NCBI GenBank assembly: GCA_016193585.1
Contig: JACPRW010000006.1
Location: 64,293 to 128,292 of the forward strand
Direction: 5' to 3'
DNA: 64,000 bases
Source of the DNA: Candidatus Aenigmatarchaeota archaeon
GTDB taxonomy: Archaea > Aenigmatarchaeota > Aenigmatarchaeia > GW2011-AR5
The number at the start of each line of letters is the position of its first letter. Within the stretch, counting starts at the first letter, position 1. Positions 3,577 to 43,181 of the stretch are shown piece by piece. The position numbers were made by a program, and so were the translations under genes. The notes under the pieces were generated by a model. It saw only the letters and a program-made list of their open reading frames with translations. It was not told where the DNA came from and ran no database searches.

Positions 3577-3733
3577 ATGCTCCTTTACACCACCGGCTGC
3601 AGCCGGTGGTTTCCGCGGGGCATGGCATCTGCTGCCTGACTTGAGGTTAATCGAGGATTAACCTAAGTCGCCAAAAGACTTCACAGAAGTCTTTTGTACG
3701 AAGGCAGAATTTTCAAGGCATTCGAGATCACAA
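3577..3733 (+). repeat. palindromic repeat family copy A
   Basis: ATGCTCCTTTACACCACCGGCTGCAGCCGGTGGTTTCCGCGG…AAAAGACTTcacagAAGTCTTTT…TTTTCAAGGCATTCGAGAT. Confidence 0.85.
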
Positions 3734-6711: not shown

Positions 6712-6828
6712 ATGATATGCTCCTCTATACCACCGGCTGATTCACGGAGAGCGGAGCTCTCCTGAATTCCTTGCAGAACCAAGTTCTGCGAGGTTTCAGA
6801 GAACTTTGTTCCCTGCAAATCTCAAGGG
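6712..6828 (+). repeat. palindromic repeat family copy C (degenerate)
   Basis: ATGATATGCTCCTCTATACCACCGGCTG then hairpins GGAGAGCggaGCTCTCC, GCAGAACcaaGTTCTGC. Confidence 0.7.
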
Positions 6829-12217: not shown

Positions 12218-15200
12218 GATTCTTCTCCGGGATGATCATTGCTGCACTTATGATTACCGCTGTCGCCGTATTCTCCGCCCCCCAGCCGCCAGCCCTTGCA
12301 AACAACATTTTTCTTAAATCAAGAACCATCACCAACTACGGACCGCTTTCTTCCTTTTCCGCCAGGACAGGAGGCCATTATATAATACAATTCAGCCATG
12401 TACCGACGGACGACGGGAAAGCTGCACTGGAAGCAAACGGCATACTGCTGCTCAGCTACCTGCCGGACAAGGCATGGTACGCGTACGTGGAACCGGACGC
12501 AATGCTCACGAACGTCACCTACCTGGGGCCGGTCCTTCCGAACGACAAGCTGCCGCCGATGCTGCAGGAAGGCGTGCCTGACTGGATGCGCAACGGCGAC
12601 GCTACCGCCAATCTTTCGGTGACATTCTTCCCTGACGTATCACCGGACGATGCAGACCGCACCATAGAAGCGCACGGAGGCATCGTGAAGCGCCGCATGG
12701 CGGGCACTGCACGGGACGTGCAGCTTCCTGCAGAATCATTGCACAGCATCACGAACGAGGACGGCGTCAAATGGGTCGAGAACAGCAACACGCGTCTCGC
12801 CGCTCTCAACGACGGCGCCCGGAATGCCTCGGGGGTCACCGGCCTCCTCGACGCACCCTATCATCTCAACGGCACTGGCGTTGTCATAGCAGAATGGGAC
12901 CAGGGGTGGGCAGAGCGGACGCACAGCGCCCTGTCGGCAAAAACCACGCGCGGCGATGACGGCTGCACCGAAACAGAATGCGCCGACGACAGCCATGCGA
13001 CGCACGTTGCCGGCACCATGCTTGCCAACGGCAGCGGCTCGAACTACGCATACCGGGGCATGGCGCCCAACGCAACGCTGATAACGTACGAGTGGCCGGA
13101 CGACGGAACTTCGGAACTGTACAATGAGACCAACCTCTCGACTGCCGTGTACAATGCTTCCGTTTCCCAGAATTCGTGGGGTTACAGCACGCAGGCAAAC
13201 GGGTGCGGCATCATGGGAGACTACACCGCGTTCAGCGCAGCGTACGACAACATAATCCACGGCAATCAAAGCGTGACCAGCAGGACCATGACTATCGTAT
13301 TCGCTGCCGGCAACGACCGGTCAACAAATTCAGCGTACTGCGGCTCGCAAGGCCATACGTACAACACGACAACAGGGCCGGGAGGGACAGCGAAGAACAC
13401 CATCACGGTCGGCGCCGTCGACTCGGACACGTCTGCGATGACGTCGTTCAGCTCGTGGGGACCGACCGACGACGGAAGAATCAAGCCCGACGTCGTCGCT
13501 CCGGGGTGCGAGAACACCACCAACCTCAACGACGCCCTTGCGTACCGCTCCATCTGGTCGACCATCACGGGCAACACGTACAGCGGCTCGTGCGGCACCT
13601 CGATGGCGGCGCCGGTCGTTTCGGGCATCGCCGCGCTCATCTACCAGGATTACCGGCAGACGTTCAACCGGACACCGCTGCCATCAACGGTCAAGGCACT
13701 GCTTGTCCACACCGCGCGCGACGTGAACAACACCGGGCCTGACTACACGAGCGGCTACGGCATCGTCAATGCGACGGCTGCAATCGCCAAACTGCGGGAG
13801 GACAACAGGACCGATGTCGTCAAGGAGGGCAACGTAAGCCAGAACACTGCCGAGACGCACCAGCTAACGCTCTCCGGAAGGAGCGAACTAAAAATCACGC
13901 TTGCGTGGGATGATTACCAGGGAGACCCGAATGCAGCCAACGCGCTGGTCAACGACCTCGACCTGCTCGTGTATACCACCGCCGGCACCCGCTTCTTTCC
14001 GTGGACGCTCGACAAAACGAACCCTGCGACGGGAGCGGTGCAGACCCAGCGGGACGCGCTCAACAATATCGAGCAGGTCTACGTCGCCAACGCGAGCAGC
14101 GGAACCTGGAACATCACCATCAACGGGACCGCCGTCCCTAACGGCCCGCAAAACTATTCGCTCGTCATCAGCGTCACCGACACCACGCTCCCTGAGATAC
14201 GGTTCCTCACGCCTACTCCGGGAAACAGCTCAAACATCTCGTCATCGTGGGTTTACATCAACGCCACATCGAACGAGGTCATAACCGGCGCGGTGCTCGA
14301 ATGGAACAACGGCACCGTCACCAACTTCACCATGAGCGGCAACACCACGCACTTTTTTTACAACGCCACCAGCCTCGATAACCGGACGTACAGCTACAAG
14401 GTGTTCGTCAATGACACGGCGAACAACACCAACGTTTCCGACGTCAGATACGTCACGGTCGATACCATCGTCCCGCAGATTTCCATCTCGCTGCCGGCGA
14501 ACCTGACGTACAATTACACGCCCTCGCTCAACTTCAGCGCTTCGGACGCGTTCGGCCGGGTGGACCGCTGCTGGTTTGCGCTCAACAGGAACGAGACCAA
14601 TGCGACCATCAGCTCGTGCCAGAACCTGTCGCTCATCGGCGCTGAAGGATTCAACAATCTCACCGTGTACGTGAACGACACCGCGGGCAACACCAACTCC
14701 TCGCCGGTAAATTTCACCATCGACACCGTGCTCTCGGTCATCATGGTCACGAGCCCGAAAAATACGACGTACAACTACACGAACTTCACGCTCAACTACA
14801 GCGTCACCGACGTCGCCGTTTCATCGTGCTGGTTCCTCAACACAACCGGCGAGCGCATCAACCTTTCCGGCTGCATCAACGCGACGTTCAACGCGACGCC
14901 GAACAGCCAGAGCAACATCACGGTGTACGTCAACGACACCGCCAACAATACGCAGTCGTCCCAGATTTTTTTCAGCGTTGACATGAGCGTCCCCAACATC
15001 ACCGCCGCCTTTCCCCTCAACCAGACGTACAACTATACGCCCGGCATCAACTTCACGGTCACCAATGCCTTCGGCGCGCTCGACAACTGCTGGTATACCA
15101 ATGTGACAGCTTCATCGATATTCCTCCCCGCATGCGCCAACATCTCGGCAGGAAATTTCAGCGAGGGGATGAACGTTGTCAGGCTCTTCATCAATGATAC

Positions 15201-17076
15201 CGGCGGCAACCTCAACAGTTCCGCTGAGCTGAACTTCACCATAGACCTGCCGCCGCGGCTCTCGGTTCAGGCGCCGCTCAACAGCACGAATATTTCCTCG
15301 ACCAACGTCACGCTCAATTACACCGTAGGCGACACGTACGGCATCGACCGCTGCTGGCTCGTCAATACGAGCGGGAGCACCATTTTCCTTAATACAGGCC
15401 CCGGAGCCACGTGCGCGAACATCACGTTCCTCGGCGCCGAGAATCAGCCCAGCAACATCACCGTGTCGGTCAACGACACGAAAGGCAGCGTCAACTGGAC
15501 GCAGCTTTTCTTCACGGTCGACGGCATACTGCCTTTCATAACCTTCGAAAGCCCCACGCCCAACGCCACAACGAACGCGAGCACCGTCAGGCAGAACGCG
15601 AAAACGGTGCTCATCAACATCAGCGGAAACGAGAACCTCGACACCGTGACGCTCGAATGGAACGGCGCCAACGAAAGCATGGCAGGGAACTATACATCAT
15701 GGTCGAAGAACAAGTCAATAGCAACCCCGGGCAGCTACACCTTCAAGGTGTGGGCGAACGACACAGCAGGGAACAGGAACGTTTCTGAAAGCCGCACGTT
15801 CAACGTCACTGACACGGTGAAACCTGAGGTGACCGCGTCCTCGCCCACCGCGGGGACGTATTCGGCGAGCAACATATCGCTCAACTTCACCGCAGGCGAC
15901 AACTTCGCGGTTGACGCGTGCTGGTACCGGCTCAACGGAGGGGCGAACACCATGCTCGCGGGCTGCGCGAACATCACCTTTCTTGCCGCAACCGGCGGCA
16001 ACACGGTCAACCTCTCGGTCAACGATACCTCAGGAAACAGGAATGAAACGAGCATTGCGTTCACGTACACTGAGCCGACAACGACGACAACGACCGGCGG
16101 AGGCGGTTCCGCCGCCCCCTCTGCCACCACGAACACGTCGATACCCCAGCAGAACCAGACGAGCACGGTCAACATCACGGCAAACGGCACCGCAGAAATA
16201 AACGTCTCCATAAACGGGTCGGTAACCAAAATTGTTCTCAGGACGCTGCATGCTGCCACCAACGTGAAGGTGACCGTGAAGCGGCTTGCAGCAAAGCCTG
16301 CAGGAGTCGCGGCGCCGGCAGGCGCTGCCTTCGAATATCTCGACATAACCGCAGAAAACCTGAGCGCCGCCACCATAGACAGGGCAGCCATCCAGTTCAA
16401 TGTCAGCACTACGTGGCTCAGCGCAAACAACGTGACTGCCATGGATGTGCTCCTGAAGCGCTACAGCGGCAGTGCGTGGGAAAATCTCACGACAACAAAA
16501 CTACGTGAAACGGCATCCGTCGTCCTGTACGAAGCAACAACTCCGGGATTCTCCACATTCGCCATTGTCGCAGAGAAAGCGCCGTCGCCACTGACCGTCT
16601 GCGGCAACAGCGTCCGGGAAGGAGCAGAACAGTGCGATGGCACCGACCTCGCCGGCCAGTCGTGCAGCAGCAAAGGGTTTGCCAACGGCACGCTCAGGTG
16701 CACCAGCAGCTGCGCGTATGACACGAGCGTCTGCATGACAGCAGCGCAGCCGGCGTGCGGCAACGGCGTGTGCGAATCAGGAGAAAACGCGACATGTGCC
16801 CGGGACTGTGCACTGCAAGGCGACGGGCAGGGTGGCATTGACTTCATTCCTATCGTTATCGTCATTGCGGTGCTCGCCGGCCTCGCGTACGGAGCGAAAC
16901 GGTTCCTCGCCTCCCGGCAGGAGGAAACACAGGACGACCTGCTGCTCTTTGCCGTGAAGAGCCTCCAGGCAGGCTACAGCGTGAGCTACGTGAAGGAAAT
17001 ACTGCAGGACCGGGGCTACGACAAGGAAACCATCAGCAGCGTGCTGCGCAAGGCGATGAGGCGGGTTGCGAAGTGA
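12214..17076 (+). CDS. giant secreted subtilisin-like (S8) protease with repeated Ig-like domains and C-terminal TM
   Basis: EWDQGW (Asp), DDSHATHVAGTML (His), GTSMAAPVVSG (Ser); repeated FTVD/VNDT modules; FIPIVIVIAVLAGLAYGAKRFL TM. Confidence 0.92.
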   Translation: MRFFSGMIIAALMITAVAVFSAPQPPALANNIFLKSRTITNYGPLSSFSARTGGHYIIQFSHVPTDDGKAALEANGILLLSYLPDKAWYAYVEPDAMLTNVTYLGPVLPNDKLPPMLQEGVPDWMRNGDATANLSVTFFPDVSPDDADRTIEAHGGIVKRRMAGTARDVQLPAESLHSITNEDGVKWVENSNTRLAALNDGARNASGVTGLLDAPYHLNGTGVVIAEWDQGWAERTHSALSAKTTRGDDGCTETECADDSHATHVAGTMLANGSGSNYAYRGMAPNATLITYEWPDDGTSELYNETNLSTAVYNASVSQNSWGYSTQANGCGIMGDYTAFSAAYDNIIHGNQSVTSRTMTIVFAAGNDRSTNSAYCGSQGHTYNTTTGPGGTAKNTITVGAVDSDTSAMTSFSSWGPTDDGRIKPDVVAPGCENTTNLNDALAYRSIWSTITGNTYSGSCGTSMAAPVVSGIAALIYQDYRQTFNRTPLPSTVKALLVHTARDVNNTGPDYTSGYGIVNATAAIAKLREDNRTDVVKEGNVSQNTAETHQLTLSGRSELKITLAWDDYQGDPNAANALVNDLDLLVYTTAGTRFFPWTLDKTNPATGAVQTQRDALNNIEQVYVANASSGTWNITINGTAVPNGPQNYSLVISVTDTTLPEIRFLTPTPGNSSNISSSWVYINATSNEVITGAVLEWNNGTVTNFTMSGNTTHFFYNATSLDNRTYSYKVFVNDTANNTNVSDVRYVTVDTIVPQISISLPANLTYNYTPSLNFSASDAFGRVDRCWFALNRNETNATISSCQNLSLIGAEGFNNLTVYVNDTAGNTNSSPVNFTIDTVLSVIMVTSPKNTTYNYTNFTLNYSVTDVAVSSCWFLNTTGERINLSGCINATFNATPNSQSNITVYVNDTANNTQSSQIFFSVDMSVPNITAAFPLNQTYNYTPGINFTVTNAFGALDNCWYTNVTASSIFLPACANISAGNFSEGMNVVRLFINDTGGNLNSSAELNFTIDLPPRLSVQAPLNSTNISSTNVTLNYTVGDTYGIDRCWLVNTSGSTIFLNTGPGATCANITFLGAENQPSNITVSVNDTKGSVNWTQLFFTVDGILPFITFESPTPNATTNASTVRQNAKTVLINISGNENLDTVTLEWNGANESMAGNYTSWSKNKSIATPGSYTFKVWANDTAGNRNVSESRTFNVTDTVKPEVTASSPTAGTYSASNISLNFTAGDNFAVDACWYRLNGGANTMLAGCANITFLAATGGNTVNLSVNDTSGNRNETSIAFTYTEPTTTTTTGGGGSAAPSATTNTSIPQQNQTSTVNITANGTAEINVSINGSVTKIVLRTLHAATNVKVTVKRLAAKPAGVAAPAGAAFEYLDITAENLSAATIDRAAIQFNVSTTWLSANNVTAMDVLLKRYSGSAWENLTTTKLRETASVVLYEATTPGFSTFAIVAEKAPSPLTVCGNSVREGAEQCDGTDLAGQSCSSKGFANGTLRCTSSCAYDTSVCMTAAQPACGNGVCESGENATCARDCALQGDGQGGIDFIPIVIVIAVLAGLAYGAKRFLASRQEETQDDLLLFAVKSLQAGYSVSYVKEILQDRGYDKETISSVLRKAMRRVAK

Positions 17077-23621: not shown

Positions 23622-24053
23622 ATGAATAAGAATCAGTGGTATGGAAGTGCGATATTATTCTTTCTTTTAGGAACTTATCTAGTGTGGGTATCATCATTAT
23701 TTACGATTAATATCTATAGTTCTGACACTACTCTTATAATCAAGATAGTAATGTCAATATTGAATACATTCTGTTTGTTTGGATTCATCTTCTGCATGAC
23801 AAATGGTTATCATCAGAAAACGCCTGCTCAAGAGTGGGCTGAAGTGGAATTGGTAAAACGTGATATTGAATTTCATATGGAACTATCGGAAATGTCAATA
23901 AAGGAGAGGGAAGAATTTCTAAGAGGATACTTCAAAACATTGATTGATATCTCAAAAGGGAAGAAATCTTTAGGTGAAACTGTAGAAGAAACAATAATAA
24001 GAGTTCTTGAAAAACTACAGAAAGAAGATAGTAAAAAGAAAAGACTAGCATAA
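23622..24053 (+). CDS. hypothetical membrane protein
   Basis: 143-aa ORF, two TM segments. Confidence 0.55.
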   Translation: MNKNQWYGSAILFFLLGTYLVWVSSLFTINIYSSDTTLIIKIVMSILNTFCLFGFIFCMTNGYHQKTPAQEWAEVELVKRDIEFHMELSEMSIKEREEFLRGYFKTLIDISKGKKSLGETVEETIIRVLEKLQKEDSKKKRLA

Positions 24054-24172
24054 ATGATATGCTCCTATATACCACCGACTGAAGTCGGTGGTTTCCGTGG
24101 AGCATGGCATCCCGAATGCCTTGTGTCGCATCTGCTGCCTGAAGGCAGCGGTTTTCAAGGCATTCAAGATAA
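24054..24172 (+). repeat. palindromic repeat family copy E (minimal, 'empty' form)
   Basis: ATGATATGCTCCTATATACCACCGACTGAAGTCGGTGGTTTCCGTGGAGCATGGCATCCCGAATGCC…CAAGGCATTCAAGATAA. Confidence 0.88.
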
Positions 24173-34146: not shown

Positions 34147-37100
34147 TTATTTTTTCGTGATGAGTCCGTTTATTTCGCTATCGATTGCCTTTTCAGCTTC
34201 GCTGAGGATTGCCTCATAGTCCCTGTTGAATTTCGCCTCGCCGATTTTTGATTTTGACTTGATTGCAATAATCTGCTTGACCGGCACGCCTGCCTTGAGC
34301 GCAGCCCGCGCCTGGTCGCCGTAGTGCATGATGGTCGTCATGATGCGGTAACTCTTTTTCACGTCGCTGTACGCATCGACCTCATGGAAGGCGTTCTGCT
34401 GCAGGAAGAACTCCCGTATGAGGCGCGCAATGTCCAGCGTGAGCTGCTCGCGCTCAGGGAGCGCATCGCTGCCGATAAGCTGCACAATCTCCTGCAGCTT
34501 CTCCTCCTCGGTGAGCAGTTTCTTGATCTCCCGCACGTAGAGCGGCCAGTCGCGCGCGACGTTGCTCTTGTACCATTCGTTGATGGTGTCTTCATACTGG
34601 CTATACGAGGTGAGCCAATTAATCGACGGAAAGTGCCTCCTGTTCGCCAGCTTCGCGTCAAGCGCCCAGAACGCCTTGGTAACGCGGAGCGTCGCCTGCG
34701 TCACCGGCTCCGAGAGGTCGCCGCCTGGAGGCGACACCGCGCCGATGACGGTGATAGAGCCTTCGCTGCCGTTGAGCAGCACTGCTTTGCCCGCGCGCTC
34801 GTAGAACTCGGAGAGGCGCGCAGAGAGGTACGCAGGATAGCCTTCTTCTCCCGGCATTTCCTCGAGGCGCGAAGAGATTTCGCGCATGGCCTCGGCCCAT
34901 CGCGACGTCGAGTCTGCCATGAGCGCGACGTCGTACCCCATGTCCCTGAAGTATTCGGCAATCGTTACGCCCGTGTAGATGGACGCCTCGCGCGCCGCGA
35001 CCGGCATGTTGCTCGTGTTTGCGATGAGCACCGTGCGCTCCATGAGCGGCTTGCCGCTTTTCGGGTCGACGAGCACGGGGAATTCCTTGAGCACCTCGGT
35101 CATCTCGTTGCCGCGCTCGCCGCAGCCGACGTAGACGATCACCGACGCGTCGCTCCACTTCGCAAGCGACTGCTGGGCCACGGTGTTGTGAAGAATCATC
35201 GGCAGATTACCGCCGATAAAATTATGTGTCTCAGGAACAGTTATGTCGTACACATCTGTTTCCTCATTGATTGTTTCTATTTCGGTTATCTCATCGCAGT
35301 GCACATAATCCAAGGCTTTTGCGAATTTTTCGAGAGTTTCCGAATGCAGGGCATGTGTTATCTTCTGGAACGTCTCTGTTGTTTGGTTCTGGTCAACGTA
35401 ATACCCGGCGGTAGATATGCCCTGTTTCTGGAGTGACCACGGCTTTGTCGTTCCAAGTATCTGCCTGAACAGCTTGCTCGTCATTGGCACTATATCAGTT
35501 GAGCTGCAGTAATATTTCTTGCTGTAGTAAGGGTGTATTTTAATCGCTTCTTTTGGTGCTATGAATATTCTGTAATATACCTTCCCTTTTACTTTCTTCT
35601 CGCTGCATTTGTTCAATACACCCATCCTCAACAAAAGATACGCAATGCCTTCTGCCATTTCTTTGCTTGCAGTTGCTATTTCTATGTCATTCCTGCTTAC
35701 ATGGCCGTCGCAGCTGATGTAGGCAACCAGGAAGCTTTTTATCACTGATTCAGGTGAATTCAGAAGTGTAGCGGGAACATTGATTTTATTAGACTTCTGT
35801 CTTAACGGATAGTCCAATAACTGTAACACATTAATCAAAGCCCTGCTGGAAATACTGACTGCTTCTACTGTTCTTGCCCAGAACTCCTTTGTCTCGACAC
35901 CAAATAATTCTTTCGCAAGACAAGAAAATCGTTCTCTCAGGCGTGCGTCCTTATTGAAGAAGATTATTGTTTCGCCGCCTCGTATCATGCCGTCTGCCAT
36001 GAGGTATCCAAGAAACTCTGCAAATGCTTCATCCATGTATTCGTGAATCTTGATTGGTCTCGACTGCCGCTCTGTTTTTATATGGCTTATCTTTATGCTC
36101 TTTCCTGTCACCTTCTCGAGTTTCTTGACAAATGACAGTGTCGGCTTATTAACTTTTGTGTAGAAATTCAGCAAGGTCTTGTAATTCAGACCAAGAAGTG
36201 CTGCTAGTTGTTTTTTTGTTATTTTCCTTTCGCTGGTGAACGAATCTATCAGCAGAGAGATTTCTTCTATGGCATTGCTGTCAGCGACTCTGCACTCAAA
36301 TTCCAAATCCATTTTTTGGTAATCAGCATCCATTTCCAACTTTCTCGGAGAAATAATGTAATCGCCTTCTTTCAGTCTGTACGCCTCCGTTTCCATGATA
36401 CTGAGATTTTCATCAACTTTATACAGTTTGTGAATAGGCGTTATTTTCACTTTTTTACCGGAGCGTGTCTTTATCGCTATTACCTGTTTTGTTTTTCCTT
36501 TGTATACGTGGGTAGCTTTTGTCTCGACTATTTTCTCTCCGTCGAAGGTGTGAACAGATAACGGTCTTTCGAGCGCTATTATTTTTTCTTCCCCGCTTTC
36601 AGTTACACTACCTCGTGCGTTATCGAAAACACGTTTTATATGAACTAATTTACCATCTGCAAGTATCTTCGTATCGCCTGTCACGCACTTTCCGCTCCCA
36701 AATGGACCGGGAATCGCTGCAGTGCCGCCCTTGGCTACCGGAAACAAGGCGTCTATAATCCGCTGGCCGGTGAGCAGCGGAACCACTGGTATGACCTTTT
36801 CCCGCACCGGCCTCGGCAGTCGTATCGGCCACTTCTGGCAGAGCTTCAGCTCATGTGTGCCGACGCTTGCAATAGTTTCCTCGACGGTGAAGTTGCCCTC
36901 CTTTATTTCAGTGAGCATGCCTTCAACGCCGTGCGGGACAAGTATCCGGTGCTCAATGACACCACCTTCCTTCACGGTCCCGATGACATCGCCCGCCCTG
37001 ACTGCGTCGCCTTTCTTCTTTAACGGAACAAAATGCCATTTCTTTTTTCTGTCGAGCGCAGGGACAACCGCGCCGCGCAGGATGAAATCGCCCATTATCG

Positions 37101-37395
37101 CCTTGAGCGCGGGAAGCGGCCGCTGGATGCCGTCATAGATGCTCGTGAGCAGCCCGGGGCCGAGGTCAACGGTGAGCGGCGAGCCCGTGTTTTCCACCGG
37201 CTCGCCGGGCTTCAGGCCTGACGTATCTTCGTATACCTGTATGACCGTCCGGTCAGACTTTATCTGGATGACTTCGCCGAGCAGCTTCTCGTCGCCTACT
37301 TTGACCACGTCGTACATCCGGGCATCTAGGCCTTCGGCAGTAACGACCGGACCGGAAACGCGGTATATCTTTGCCACTGCAATCCCTCCATTCAT
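34147..37395 (-). CDS. atpA: A-type ATP synthase catalytic subunit A precursor containing an intein
   Basis: GPFGSGK P-loop interrupted by CVTGDTKI…MILHN, resuming TVAQQSLAKWSDASVIVYVGCGERGNEMTEVL. Confidence 0.97.
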   Translation of the reverse strand: MNGGIAVAKIYRVSGPVVTAEGLDARMYDVVKVGDEKLLGEVIQIKSDRTVIQVYEDTSGLKPGEPVENTGSPLTVDLGPGLLTSIYDGIQRPLPALKAIMGDFILRGAVVPALDRKKKWHFVPLKKKGDAVRAGDVIGTVKEGGVIEHRILVPHGVEGMLTEIKEGNFTVEETIASVGTHELKLCQKWPIRLPRPVREKVIPVVPLLTGQRIIDALFPVAKGGTAAIPGPFGSGKCVTGDTKILADGKLVHIKRVFDNARGSVTESGEEKIIALERPLSVHTFDGEKIVETKATHVYKGKTKQVIAIKTRSGKKVKITPIHKLYKVDENLSIMETEAYRLKEGDYIISPRKLEMDADYQKMDLEFECRVADSNAIEEISLLIDSFTSERKITKKQLAALLGLNYKTLLNFYTKVNKPTLSFVKKLEKVTGKSIKISHIKTERQSRPIKIHEYMDEAFAEFLGYLMADGMIRGGETIIFFNKDARLRERFSCLAKELFGVETKEFWARTVEAVSISSRALINVLQLLDYPLRQKSNKINVPATLLNSPESVIKSFLVAYISCDGHVSRNDIEIATASKEMAEGIAYLLLRMGVLNKCSEKKVKGKVYYRIFIAPKEAIKIHPYYSKKYYCSSTDIVPMTSKLFRQILGTTKPWSLQKQGISTAGYYVDQNQTTETFQKITHALHSETLEKFAKALDYVHCDEITEIETINEETDVYDITVPETHNFIGGNLPMILHNTVAQQSLAKWSDASVIVYVGCGERGNEMTEVLKEFPVLVDPKSGKPLMERTVLIANTSNMPVAAREASIYTGVTIAEYFRDMGYDVALMADSTSRWAEAMREISSRLEEMPGEEGYPAYLSARLSEFYERAGKAVLLNGSEGSITVIGAVSPPGGDLSEPVTQATLRVTKAFWALDAKLANRRHFPSINWLTSYSQYEDTINEWYKSNVARDWPLYVREIKKLLTEEEKLQEIVQLIGSDALPEREQLTLDIARLIREFFLQQNAFHEVDAYSDVKKSYRIMTTIMHYGDQARAALKAGVPVKQIIAIKSKSKIGEAKFNRDYEAILSEAEKAIDSEINGLITKK
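35185..36687 (-). other. AtpA intein (501 aa) with LAGLIDADG-type homing endonuclease motifs
   Basis: C+1 block A CVTGDTKILADGK; C-terminal NFIGGNLPMILHN|T; FLGYLMADGMI and FLVAYISCDGHV. Confidence 0.93.
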
Positions 37396-37403
37396 TTCCA
37401 TAA

Positions 37404-37602
37404 TCAGAACCACTCGCTGTCCGCTCGCAGTTCCGATACCTCCACTTACTTTTTGAAGTCAGAACCACTCGCTGTCCGCTCGCAGTTCCGATACCTCCAC
37501 TTACTTTTTGAAGTCAGAACCACTCGCTGTCCGCTCGCAGTTCCGATACGAGGAGAAGCTTTGCTTCTCCTGTACGTGAAAACCTTATGGTCTTCACTGT
37601 AC
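37404..37602 (-). repeat. 55-bp tandem repeats (37404, 37459, 37514 starts) plus two inserted hairpin modules in atpF-atpA intergenic leader
   Basis: TCAGAACCACTCGCTGTCCGCTCGCAGTTCCGATACCTCCACTTACTTTTTGAAG repeated. Confidence 0.92.
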
Positions 37603-37608
37603 CTCCAC

Positions 37609-37911
37609 TTACTTCCACAGGTCAACGCCGAGCGAGCGCTTGATCATGAGCCGCAAATTCTCCTCGGCCTCGATGTCGTGCGACAGCGTCACGACCGTCG
37701 GGCGCACCTTGGTCATCGCTATCTCCCTGTTCCGTTCCGAAAGCTGCGCGAACGTCTTCTTGTCCATCACGGCGATGCCCACGTCATCGCTGTCCATGAC
37801 CTGCTCGAACGTCCTGTTGACCGTGTCCTTCCCGACGATGAACGACTTCCGCACGCCGGCTATATGGAAGCCCAGCACAAACTGCTCATCGCCGATGACC
37901 GCTATCTCCAT
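37609..37911 (-). CDS. atpF: A-type ATP synthase subunit F
   Basis: MEIAVIGDEQFVLGFHIAGVRKSF. Confidence 0.9.
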   Translation of the reverse strand: MEIAVIGDEQFVLGFHIAGVRKSFIVGKDTVNRTFEQVMDSDDVGIAVMDKKTFAQLSERNREIAMTKVRPTVVTLSHDIEAEENLRLMIKRSLGVDLWK

Positions 37912-37914
37912 ATC

Positions 37915-37950
37915 AGAACCACTCACTTCGTTCGCAGTTCCGATACCTCC
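37915..37950 (-). promoter_or_regulatory. atpF leader hairpin with tandem G.A mismatches between SD (GGAGGT) and ATG
   Basis: mRNA sense GGAGGTATC-GGAACTGCGAACGAAGTGAGTGGTTCT-GAT-ATG. Confidence 0.65.
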
Positions 37951-42322: not shown

Positions 42323-42476
42323 AATATCCCCCGCTCCGCGTGTCGCGTTCAGAAAGCATACACTTTCTGACGCCTCGAAGAGCTCCGCTCTTCAAGGTAT
42401 CCCATAGTATGCCGTGTCGTGCTCAAAGAACCTGTGAAGTTCTTTGGCACAGCAGAAGCATTGCTTCTGCATGTAT

Positions 42477-42711: not shown

Positions 42712-42956
42712 TATCTTGAATGCCTTGAAAACTGCTGCCTTCGTACAAAAGACTTCCGTGAAGTCTTTTGGCGACTTAGGTTAATCCTCGATTAACCTCA
42801 AGTCAGGCAGCAGATGCAACACAAGGCATTCGGGATCTTCAAAGAGCTCTGCTCTTTGAGATCTCAACTGCGGAAAGCTTCCACTTTCCGCAGTTGCAGA
42901 TGCCATGCTCCACGGAAACCACCGACTTCAGTCGGTGGTATACAGGAGCATATCAT
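42712..42956 (-). repeat. palindromic repeat family copy F (full length, with inserted hairpin modules)
   Basis: Aligns with copy E plus 62-nt (42743-42804) and 65-nt (42837-42901) insertions made of hairpins. Confidence 0.9.
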
Positions 42957-43082: not shown

Positions 43083-43181
43083 AAGAAGAACGTTTCTTCG
43101 CTGGCACTCAGGAAGGAGTGCAGGGTTGATACGTGCGGAAAGCGGAGCTTTCTGACGTGCCAAAGAACCTTTGGTTCTTTG
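43083..43181. repeat. array of short hairpin modules
   Basis: GAAGAAcgttTCTTC; GCACTCaggaagGAGTGC; ACGTGC-GGAAAGCggaGCTTTCTG-ACGTGC; CAAAGAACctttgGTTCTTTG. Confidence 0.8.

Follow-up and report, generated by a model that had tools for sequence, protein, structure and literature searches.

A double-hairpin insert between atpF and atpA of an Aenigmatarchaeota archaeon as a possible mobile palindromic element

Double hairpins compared with described mobile palindromes

Mobile palindromes such as REPINs, double-hairpin elements (DHEs) and GC clusters have been known for decades. To our knowledge, the mechanism by which such small hairpins are inserted is largely unknown. In REPINs the doublet is the unit, and deletions of a singlet are not seen (PMC3116915). 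The REP of S. maltophilia has an 8-bp stem and a 3-nt loop after GTAG, and its recognition depends on the bulge and the tag (PMC8266576). The DHEs of Allomyces and other fungal mitochondrial DNA are described, as cited in PMC5910586 and PMC2800124, as back-to-back intergenic hairpins that are present or absent between relatives and whose mobility was inferred without a known enzyme. The GC42 cluster of yeast mitochondria is a 42-nt palindromic mobile element with a 2-nt (AG) target duplication (PMC4478555).

The double hairpins (DHs) analysed here share with REPINs and BIMEs, which are moved by RAYT (TnpA-REP, of the IS200/IS605 superfamily), the doublet unit, the intergenic location, short tagged hairpins, bulges and compensatory changes. 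They differ in having a GTAC-like joint instead of the GTAG tag, and widely variable stems with no conserved REP sequence. The DH hairpins also abut, are inserted recursively into hairpin loops, and occur in an archaeal host in which no Y1 transposase was detected. With neither the tag nor the enzyme found, the DHs are not placed among the REPINs. The likeness to fungal DHEs, namely two adjacent hairpins and optional presence in intergenic DNA, is one of form only; DHEs are mitochondrial and are described as lacking flanking duplications (PMC2800124), and the recursive nesting seen in the host is not among the features given for them there (PMC5910586, PMC2800124). As in GC clusters, loops change more than stems and units merge and shuffle (PMC4478555), but GC clusters are GC-rich, organellar and conserved in sequence, whereas DHs have variable stems and are preferentially inserted in hairpin loops and joints.

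Palindrome-associated elements derived from IS200/IS605 are comparable in their terminal hairpins and single-stranded DNA (ssDNA) target, and the outer-bulge foot of most DHs may correspond to the subterminal bulged hairpin at each IS end. IS200/IS605 elements insert after a fixed tetranucleotide without duplication; in the DHs a 2-nt TA or AT overlap is common, and the others range over 0-8 nt. The Pithovirus M1/M2 repeats and TA-inserting MITEs are likewise palindromic, intergenic and clustered, with a putative TA duplication and no convincing transposase; the M1/M2 repeats, however, are longer (TIRs of 47-54 bp), conserved in sequence, and tandem rather than nested (PMC10664404). A TA-inserting MITE of the IS630/Tc1 type does not fit, as the DHs have no conserved terminal inverted repeats beyond short ends and the related DDE transposase was not found in the host. 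Nor does a retroelement origin, reverse transcriptase (PF00078) being absent from the host. No description of elements of this kind in Aenigmatarchaeota was found in the openly accessible literature searched, and there is a chance that recursive, structure-targeted insertion marks something new.

The atpF-atpA locus and the double hairpin as a unit

The host is an Aenigmatarchaeota (DPANN) genome with an assembly of 1.17 Mb in 10 contigs. Positions without a locus prefix refer to the window, which is the whole stretch of 64,000 nucleotides that was analysed. On the minus strand, Pfam matches place the site in an A-type ATP synthase operon, between an upstream atpF (subunit F; 37609-37914; PF01990, 1.1e-14) and a downstream atpA (subunit A; 34147-37413; ATP-synt_ab, Intein_splicing and LAGLIDADG_3). 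The atpA gene contains an in-frame intein, which includes a LAGLIDADG-type domain. A 55-bp tandem unit was identified by TRF at 37404-37549, with 2.7 copies and a 100% match. The first two copies (37404-37458 and 37459-37513, minus strand) are empty, with CCGATAC joined directly to CTCCACTTACTT. The third (37514-37614, minus strand) is interrupted after TAC at 37547-37549 and resumes with CTCCACTTACTT at 37603-37614. The occupied copy reads TAC (37547-37549), GAGGAGAAGCTTTGCTTCTCCTG (37550-37572), TAC (37573-37575), GTGAAAACCTTATGGTCTTCACTG (37576-37599), TAC (37600-37602) and CTCCACTTACTT. A sequence-only reading of this DNA had placed the hairpins and the TAC triplets correctly to the base, and its comparison of occupied with empty repeats proved genuine: a 53-bp net insert (37550-37602, no strand assigned) is present in one of three otherwise identical units.

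On the sense (minus) strand, the insert and its borders read GGAGGTA[C A GTGAAGACC ataa GGTTTTCAC GTAC AGGAGAAGC aaa GCTTCTCCT C G]TA TCGG. Hairpin 1 (37551-37571, no strand assigned) has a 9-bp stem, a 3-nt loop and an outer 1-nt bulge at 37550, while hairpin 2 (37576-37597, minus strand) has nine pairs including one G-U, a 4-nt loop and an outer bulge at 37598. Except for the 4-nt loop in one hairpin, this DH matches the commonest subtype. In the predicted fold, the junction is the joint that separates the Shine-Dalgarno-like GGAGGTA from the TCGGAAC hairpin of the tandem repeat, upstream of atpA; little effect of the DH on the neighbouring genes is expected. At a second host locus (C9:150845), both hairpins were found together at the identical insertion point, with stems changed on both sides. 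The flanks of the two loci are identical at 48/48 positions and the DHs differ at many, which indicates that the DH has been changed or replaced faster than its flanks.

A 31-nt hairpin, TCGGAACTGCGAACGAAGTGAGTGGTTCTGA, lies between GGAGGTA and the atpF ATG (37912-37950, minus strand) and is single, in contrast to the DHs. G003, a genome of the same family as the host, reads GGAGGGTATGATATGG in its place, an apparent orthologous empty site. Rfam models searched against the window matched tRNA only, with no match for the hairpin elements.

Paralogous repeat copies were compared within 518 kb of the 1.17 Mb host assembly (G000) and within 280 kb of G003 and 240 kb of G014, the latter two representing two related genera. 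This gave 50, 5 and 5 occupied/empty pairs, respectively. Once identical empty sites had been merged and inserts with fewer than two hairpins set aside, 33 non-redundant sites were left, many with flanks 92-100% identical. The net insert measured 51-66 bp (typically 51-57) in 22 of these, and the remainder were larger compound inserts. No single clean hairpin insert occurred among the occupied/empty pairs of the three genomes, so that the two modules of the atpF-atpA site are understood as one double hairpin. Inserts lacking two hairpins were few and consisted of short differences not involving a hairpin, of longer rearrangements or of alternative alignments.

The 33 sites uphold the earlier view of the hairpins as discrete insertion units, and copies with 0, 1 or 2 units, which it had proposed to seek as alleles, were seen across paralogous repeats. 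Its division of the insert into two separate modules of 23 and 24 nt did not hold, the unit being one double hairpin of about 53 bp, with single-hairpin inserts at 0/33 sites. The 3-bp TAC repeat did not prove general, the commonest overlap being 2 nt, and the middle TAC, taken for an insertion boundary, belongs to the internal GTAC joint of the element.

The comparison with shuffled sequence that the same reading had proposed came out in its favour: perfect intergenic hairpins with stems of at least 8 bp numbered 79 in the first 302 kb sampled, against 3.8 in dinucleotide shuffles. Hairpin pairs within 10 bp numbered 54 in the host and 20 and 19 in the two related genera, against 0 in shuffles; the stretches were partly picked around earlier matches, which biases these densities mildly upward, and the zero in shuffles leaves a wide margin. 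Host hairpin clusters were mostly pairs (44/48), with triples or larger groups making up 4/48. Related DHs were also found in unlike flanks.

The DHs share a common geometry consisting of an outer 1-nt bulge, a stem of 8-9 bp, a usually 3-nt loop and a GTAC-like joint (GTAC, GTGC or GCAC), with variable stems. The commonest subtype, TACA-stem9-loop3-stem9-GTAC-stem9-loop3-stem9-TGTA, aligns without gaps across genera and is conserved only at its short TAC(A)..(T)GTA ends. Among 84 non-redundant pairs selected by the scan, the outer 1-nt bulge was present at the foot of the first hairpin in 56 and of the second in 50, and an inner bulge in 18 and 21. Changes in stem columns were two-sided in 46 cases and one-sided in 1; as the DHs were selected as hairpins the pairing is partly circular, and the scarcity of one-sided changes is the informative part of this comparison. 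The 3-nt loops often differ between otherwise near-identical DHs (the A2 alignment and the copies of the DH at window 608), and two copies in G014 differ in their loops only. On both strands, purines strongly predominate in the 5' arms of the stems (for example AGGTGAAGC, AGGAGAATC and CAAAGAAC).

Insertion sites, nesting and distribution

The mean probability of the junction lying in a predicted hairpin loop was 0.51, against 0.21 at the remaining positions of the same 80-nt stretches (Wilcoxon p=6e-4, n=33). This probability exceeded 0.5 at 17/33 junctions, so that about half do not fall in a predicted hairpin loop; on inspection, several of the others lie between two hairpins. A 2-nt overlap, mostly TA or AT, was seen at 13/33 sites, and other overlaps ranged from 0 to 8 nt.

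The same nodes are occupied repeatedly within larger hairpin elements, here called trunks. In the window, where none of the following features is assigned to a strand, a 52-bp DH (608-659) occupies the joint of a larger double hairpin (trunk 1), of which the sampled copies were occupied in seven cases and empty in five. A further double hairpin (826-877) lies within a larger hairpin element (690-1020), and two DHs are apical, one in the trunk hairpin CTGCCT..AGGCAG (3644-3696) and one in an ACCACCG trunk hairpin (6746-6793). Insertions at three nodes were judged against the ACCACCG trunk at 24042-24165, which is empty and consists of two plain hairpins. Relative to it, a DH of net 62 bp (42743-42802) sits in a 4-nt apical loop, with empty copies at window 24141 and L076:19012, and another of net 65 bp (42837-42898) sits between the two trunk hairpins, with an empty copy at window 24111. 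A compound insert of net 135 bp (1044-1170) was recognised in an ACCACCG trunk relative to window 3632. A DH of the L021:7484 type is found at 43136-43181 in unlike flanks, and two adjacent hairpins (42349-42397) form part of an array upstream of another ATP-synthase gene.

One trunk thus carries 0, 1 or 2 DHs across three nodes. The ACCACCG trunk is plain at window 24071, L031:9204, L085:4134 and L082:767; it carries a DH in the first apex at L030:8811 and window 6729, at the joint in L083 and at window 42837, and in the second apex at window 42743 and in L083. A different joint DH is present at window 1193, L077 and L076:16927, and combined DHs occur, for example, at L076:19127. In trunk 2, two unrelated DHs occupy one apex (L025:79 and L021:5431), and many copies are empty. 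Nesting extends to further levels at L025:48-193, where a double hairpin in a trunk-hairpin loop itself bears a 52-bp double hairpin. Tandem runs of at least three hairpins were also observed (L021:12659, L026:14342-14513 and L095:2022-3300), including a 50-bp tandem repeat of one hairpin, and L095 contains the same hairpin modules in differing orders.

The R1 covariance model detected the commonest subtype in 23/31 genomes of the order and 31/160 of the phylum. Its counts cover both strands, as the element is near-symmetric, and are halved for copies; halving gave about 57 copies in the host and a maximum of about 80 in G020. Within genus g9 the counts on both strands were 71, 84, 35 and 1. 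Families f2, f5 and f6 had no DH of the R1 subtype and were also without Y1.

The direction of change was approached through the flanks. The trunk 2 flank tree, from a short alignment, is empty at its root and needs 4 changes, where shuffles gave 5.7 and 15 of 500 were as low; it would lean slightly towards gain. The trunk 1 tree, also from a short alignment, gave no polarity. For genus g9, the orthologous intergenic regions of G008 and G017 are short; those of G014 and G018 contain hairpin inserts, which differ between the two genomes. A stretch of about 3.3 kb is almost identical between G014 (L041, ~13200-16500) and G018 (C15), with 76-88% identity on either side; it is uninformative on the inserts and represents either recent exchange or a binning artefact.

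The Y1 transposase (PF01797) was not found in G000, G003 or G014, which are incomplete draft genomes, despite their many DHs, and no TnpA or TnpB was found in the host. Reverse transcriptase (PF00078) was absent from G000 and G003 and present in G014 and G020, while DDE_3 (PF13358) was found only in G020. Among Y1, reverse transcriptase, TnpB zinc-ribbon, DDE_3 and tyrosine recombinase, no family was common to G000, G003 and G014. Across the order, Y1 occurs in 11/31 genomes, 10 of which carry the R1 subtype. Y1-bearing genomes were richer in DHs (Mann-Whitney p=0.012, 31 genomes; p=0.13 within DH-bearing families), in a comparison uncorrected for phylogeny. CCACCG..CGGTGG hairpins that resemble those of the host trunks follow a Y1 gene in G013, a neighbourhood that offers a lead towards an HUH mechanism and not a proof.

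Explanations for the double hairpins and their meaning

The DHs are most likely non-autonomous mobile palindromes of an ssDNA type, akin to REPINs or fungal DHEs. That the insert at 37550-37602 is one copy of such an element, inserting as a unit at unpaired sites, is in our judgement evenly balanced. The element would be built from a pair of hairpins placed back to back and linked by GTAC or a similar short joint, each hairpin comprising a foot, an outer bulge of 1 nt, a stem of 8-9 bp and a usually 3-nt loop. It would move whole, and the dinucleotide at which it joins the target, TA or AT in most cases, would be one left unpaired when the local DNA folds, either in a hairpin loop or between two hairpins. 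Each insertion brings two new hairpins, and later copies could therefore enter earlier ones and give rise to trees of hairpins. A structure-reading ssDNA transposase of the HUH/Y1 kind would presumably act in trans; the DNA would fold as a single strand, and most events would be gains. Against a mobile element, the stems are too variable for ordinary sequence recognition, about half of the junctions fall outside predicted loops, trunk 1 gives no polarity, and the three DH-rich genomes G000, G003 and G014 yielded no Y1 transposase. A bolder proposal, which we regard as possible but hold only tentatively, is a new class of mobile DNA that reads the structure of its target and not its sequence. 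Such DHs would enter unpaired hairpin apices and joints, their own included, and grow tree-like palindromic loci in archaeal chromosomes through an undescribed enzyme or host process.

At any one trunk site the DHs of the occupied copies are usually homologous, and loss or co-amplification could therefore underlie many of the events. On this basis the DHs might be old parts of repeated elements, with empty copies arising by precise deletion, for example through replication slippage between short repeats at the hairpin base. The TA or TAC end repeats would permit slippage, and the atpF-atpA site and C9:150845 have the DH position in common. Similar short repeats, however, flank each hairpin alone, yet loss of a single hairpin was not seen; different DHs at one apex require gains, and both the empty root of the trunk 2 tree and the g9 intergenic regions point the same way. 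We consider general deletion unlikely; at the atpF-atpA site itself, the two tandem copies may either never have had the DH or have lost it, loss being the case that the sequence-only reading had named as its refutation. Somewhat less credit is given to the shuffling of existing hairpin modules between arrays by homologous recombination or gene conversion, with no dedicated transposition. The abundant, alike trunk copies would favour it, near-identical DHs do lie between other modules within arrays (L095), and no transposase common to the three main genomes was found. The preferred insert size, clean ends and 2-nt overlap speak against it, as conversion tracts would not end at DH ends, and related DHs occupy sites without flank similarity.

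Synthesis in situ by polymerase fold-back or template switching at palindromes would explain the paired stem changes, which copying between the two arms would produce, and the loops being the most variable part. The insert is nevertheless not copied from its neighbourhood: its 9-mers were no commoner beside the empty site than at other sites (24 against 28.7), which disfavours template switching, one of the mechanisms first suggested, where it would copy local sequence. DH families are also spread over genera, and we judge this origin very unlikely, although the paired changes may stem from template-directed correction once the insert is in place. A role of the hairpins as regulatory or processing structures of the mRNAs is more improbable again. 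Ribosome-binding sites do adjoin hairpins in the ATP-synthase operon and the predicted RNA folds are stable, but wobble (G-U) pairs numbered 39 on the sense and 33 on the antisense strand, one-sided (G-U) changes are almost lacking, and density in the host differs little between co-directional, divergent and convergent intergenic regions. The lack of sense-strand bias in wobble pairs, the orientation-independent density and the inserts not being locally copied favour a structure formed at the DNA level. The smallest probability falls to two independent single-hairpin insertions, each with a 3-bp TAC duplication. TAC does occur three times in register, but the hairpins appear in this double arrangement again at a further locus and in other genera, and single-hairpin insertions were not seen.

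The mobile double hairpin remains the preferred reading. Dozens of pairs in a single genome show the states before and after insertion cleanly; with a defined unit that enters unpaired nodes and nests to several levels, structure-guided insertion is directly testable. If true, DH insertion would account for a large part of the expansion of intergenic DNA in this DPANN lineage, the Aenigmatarchaeota.
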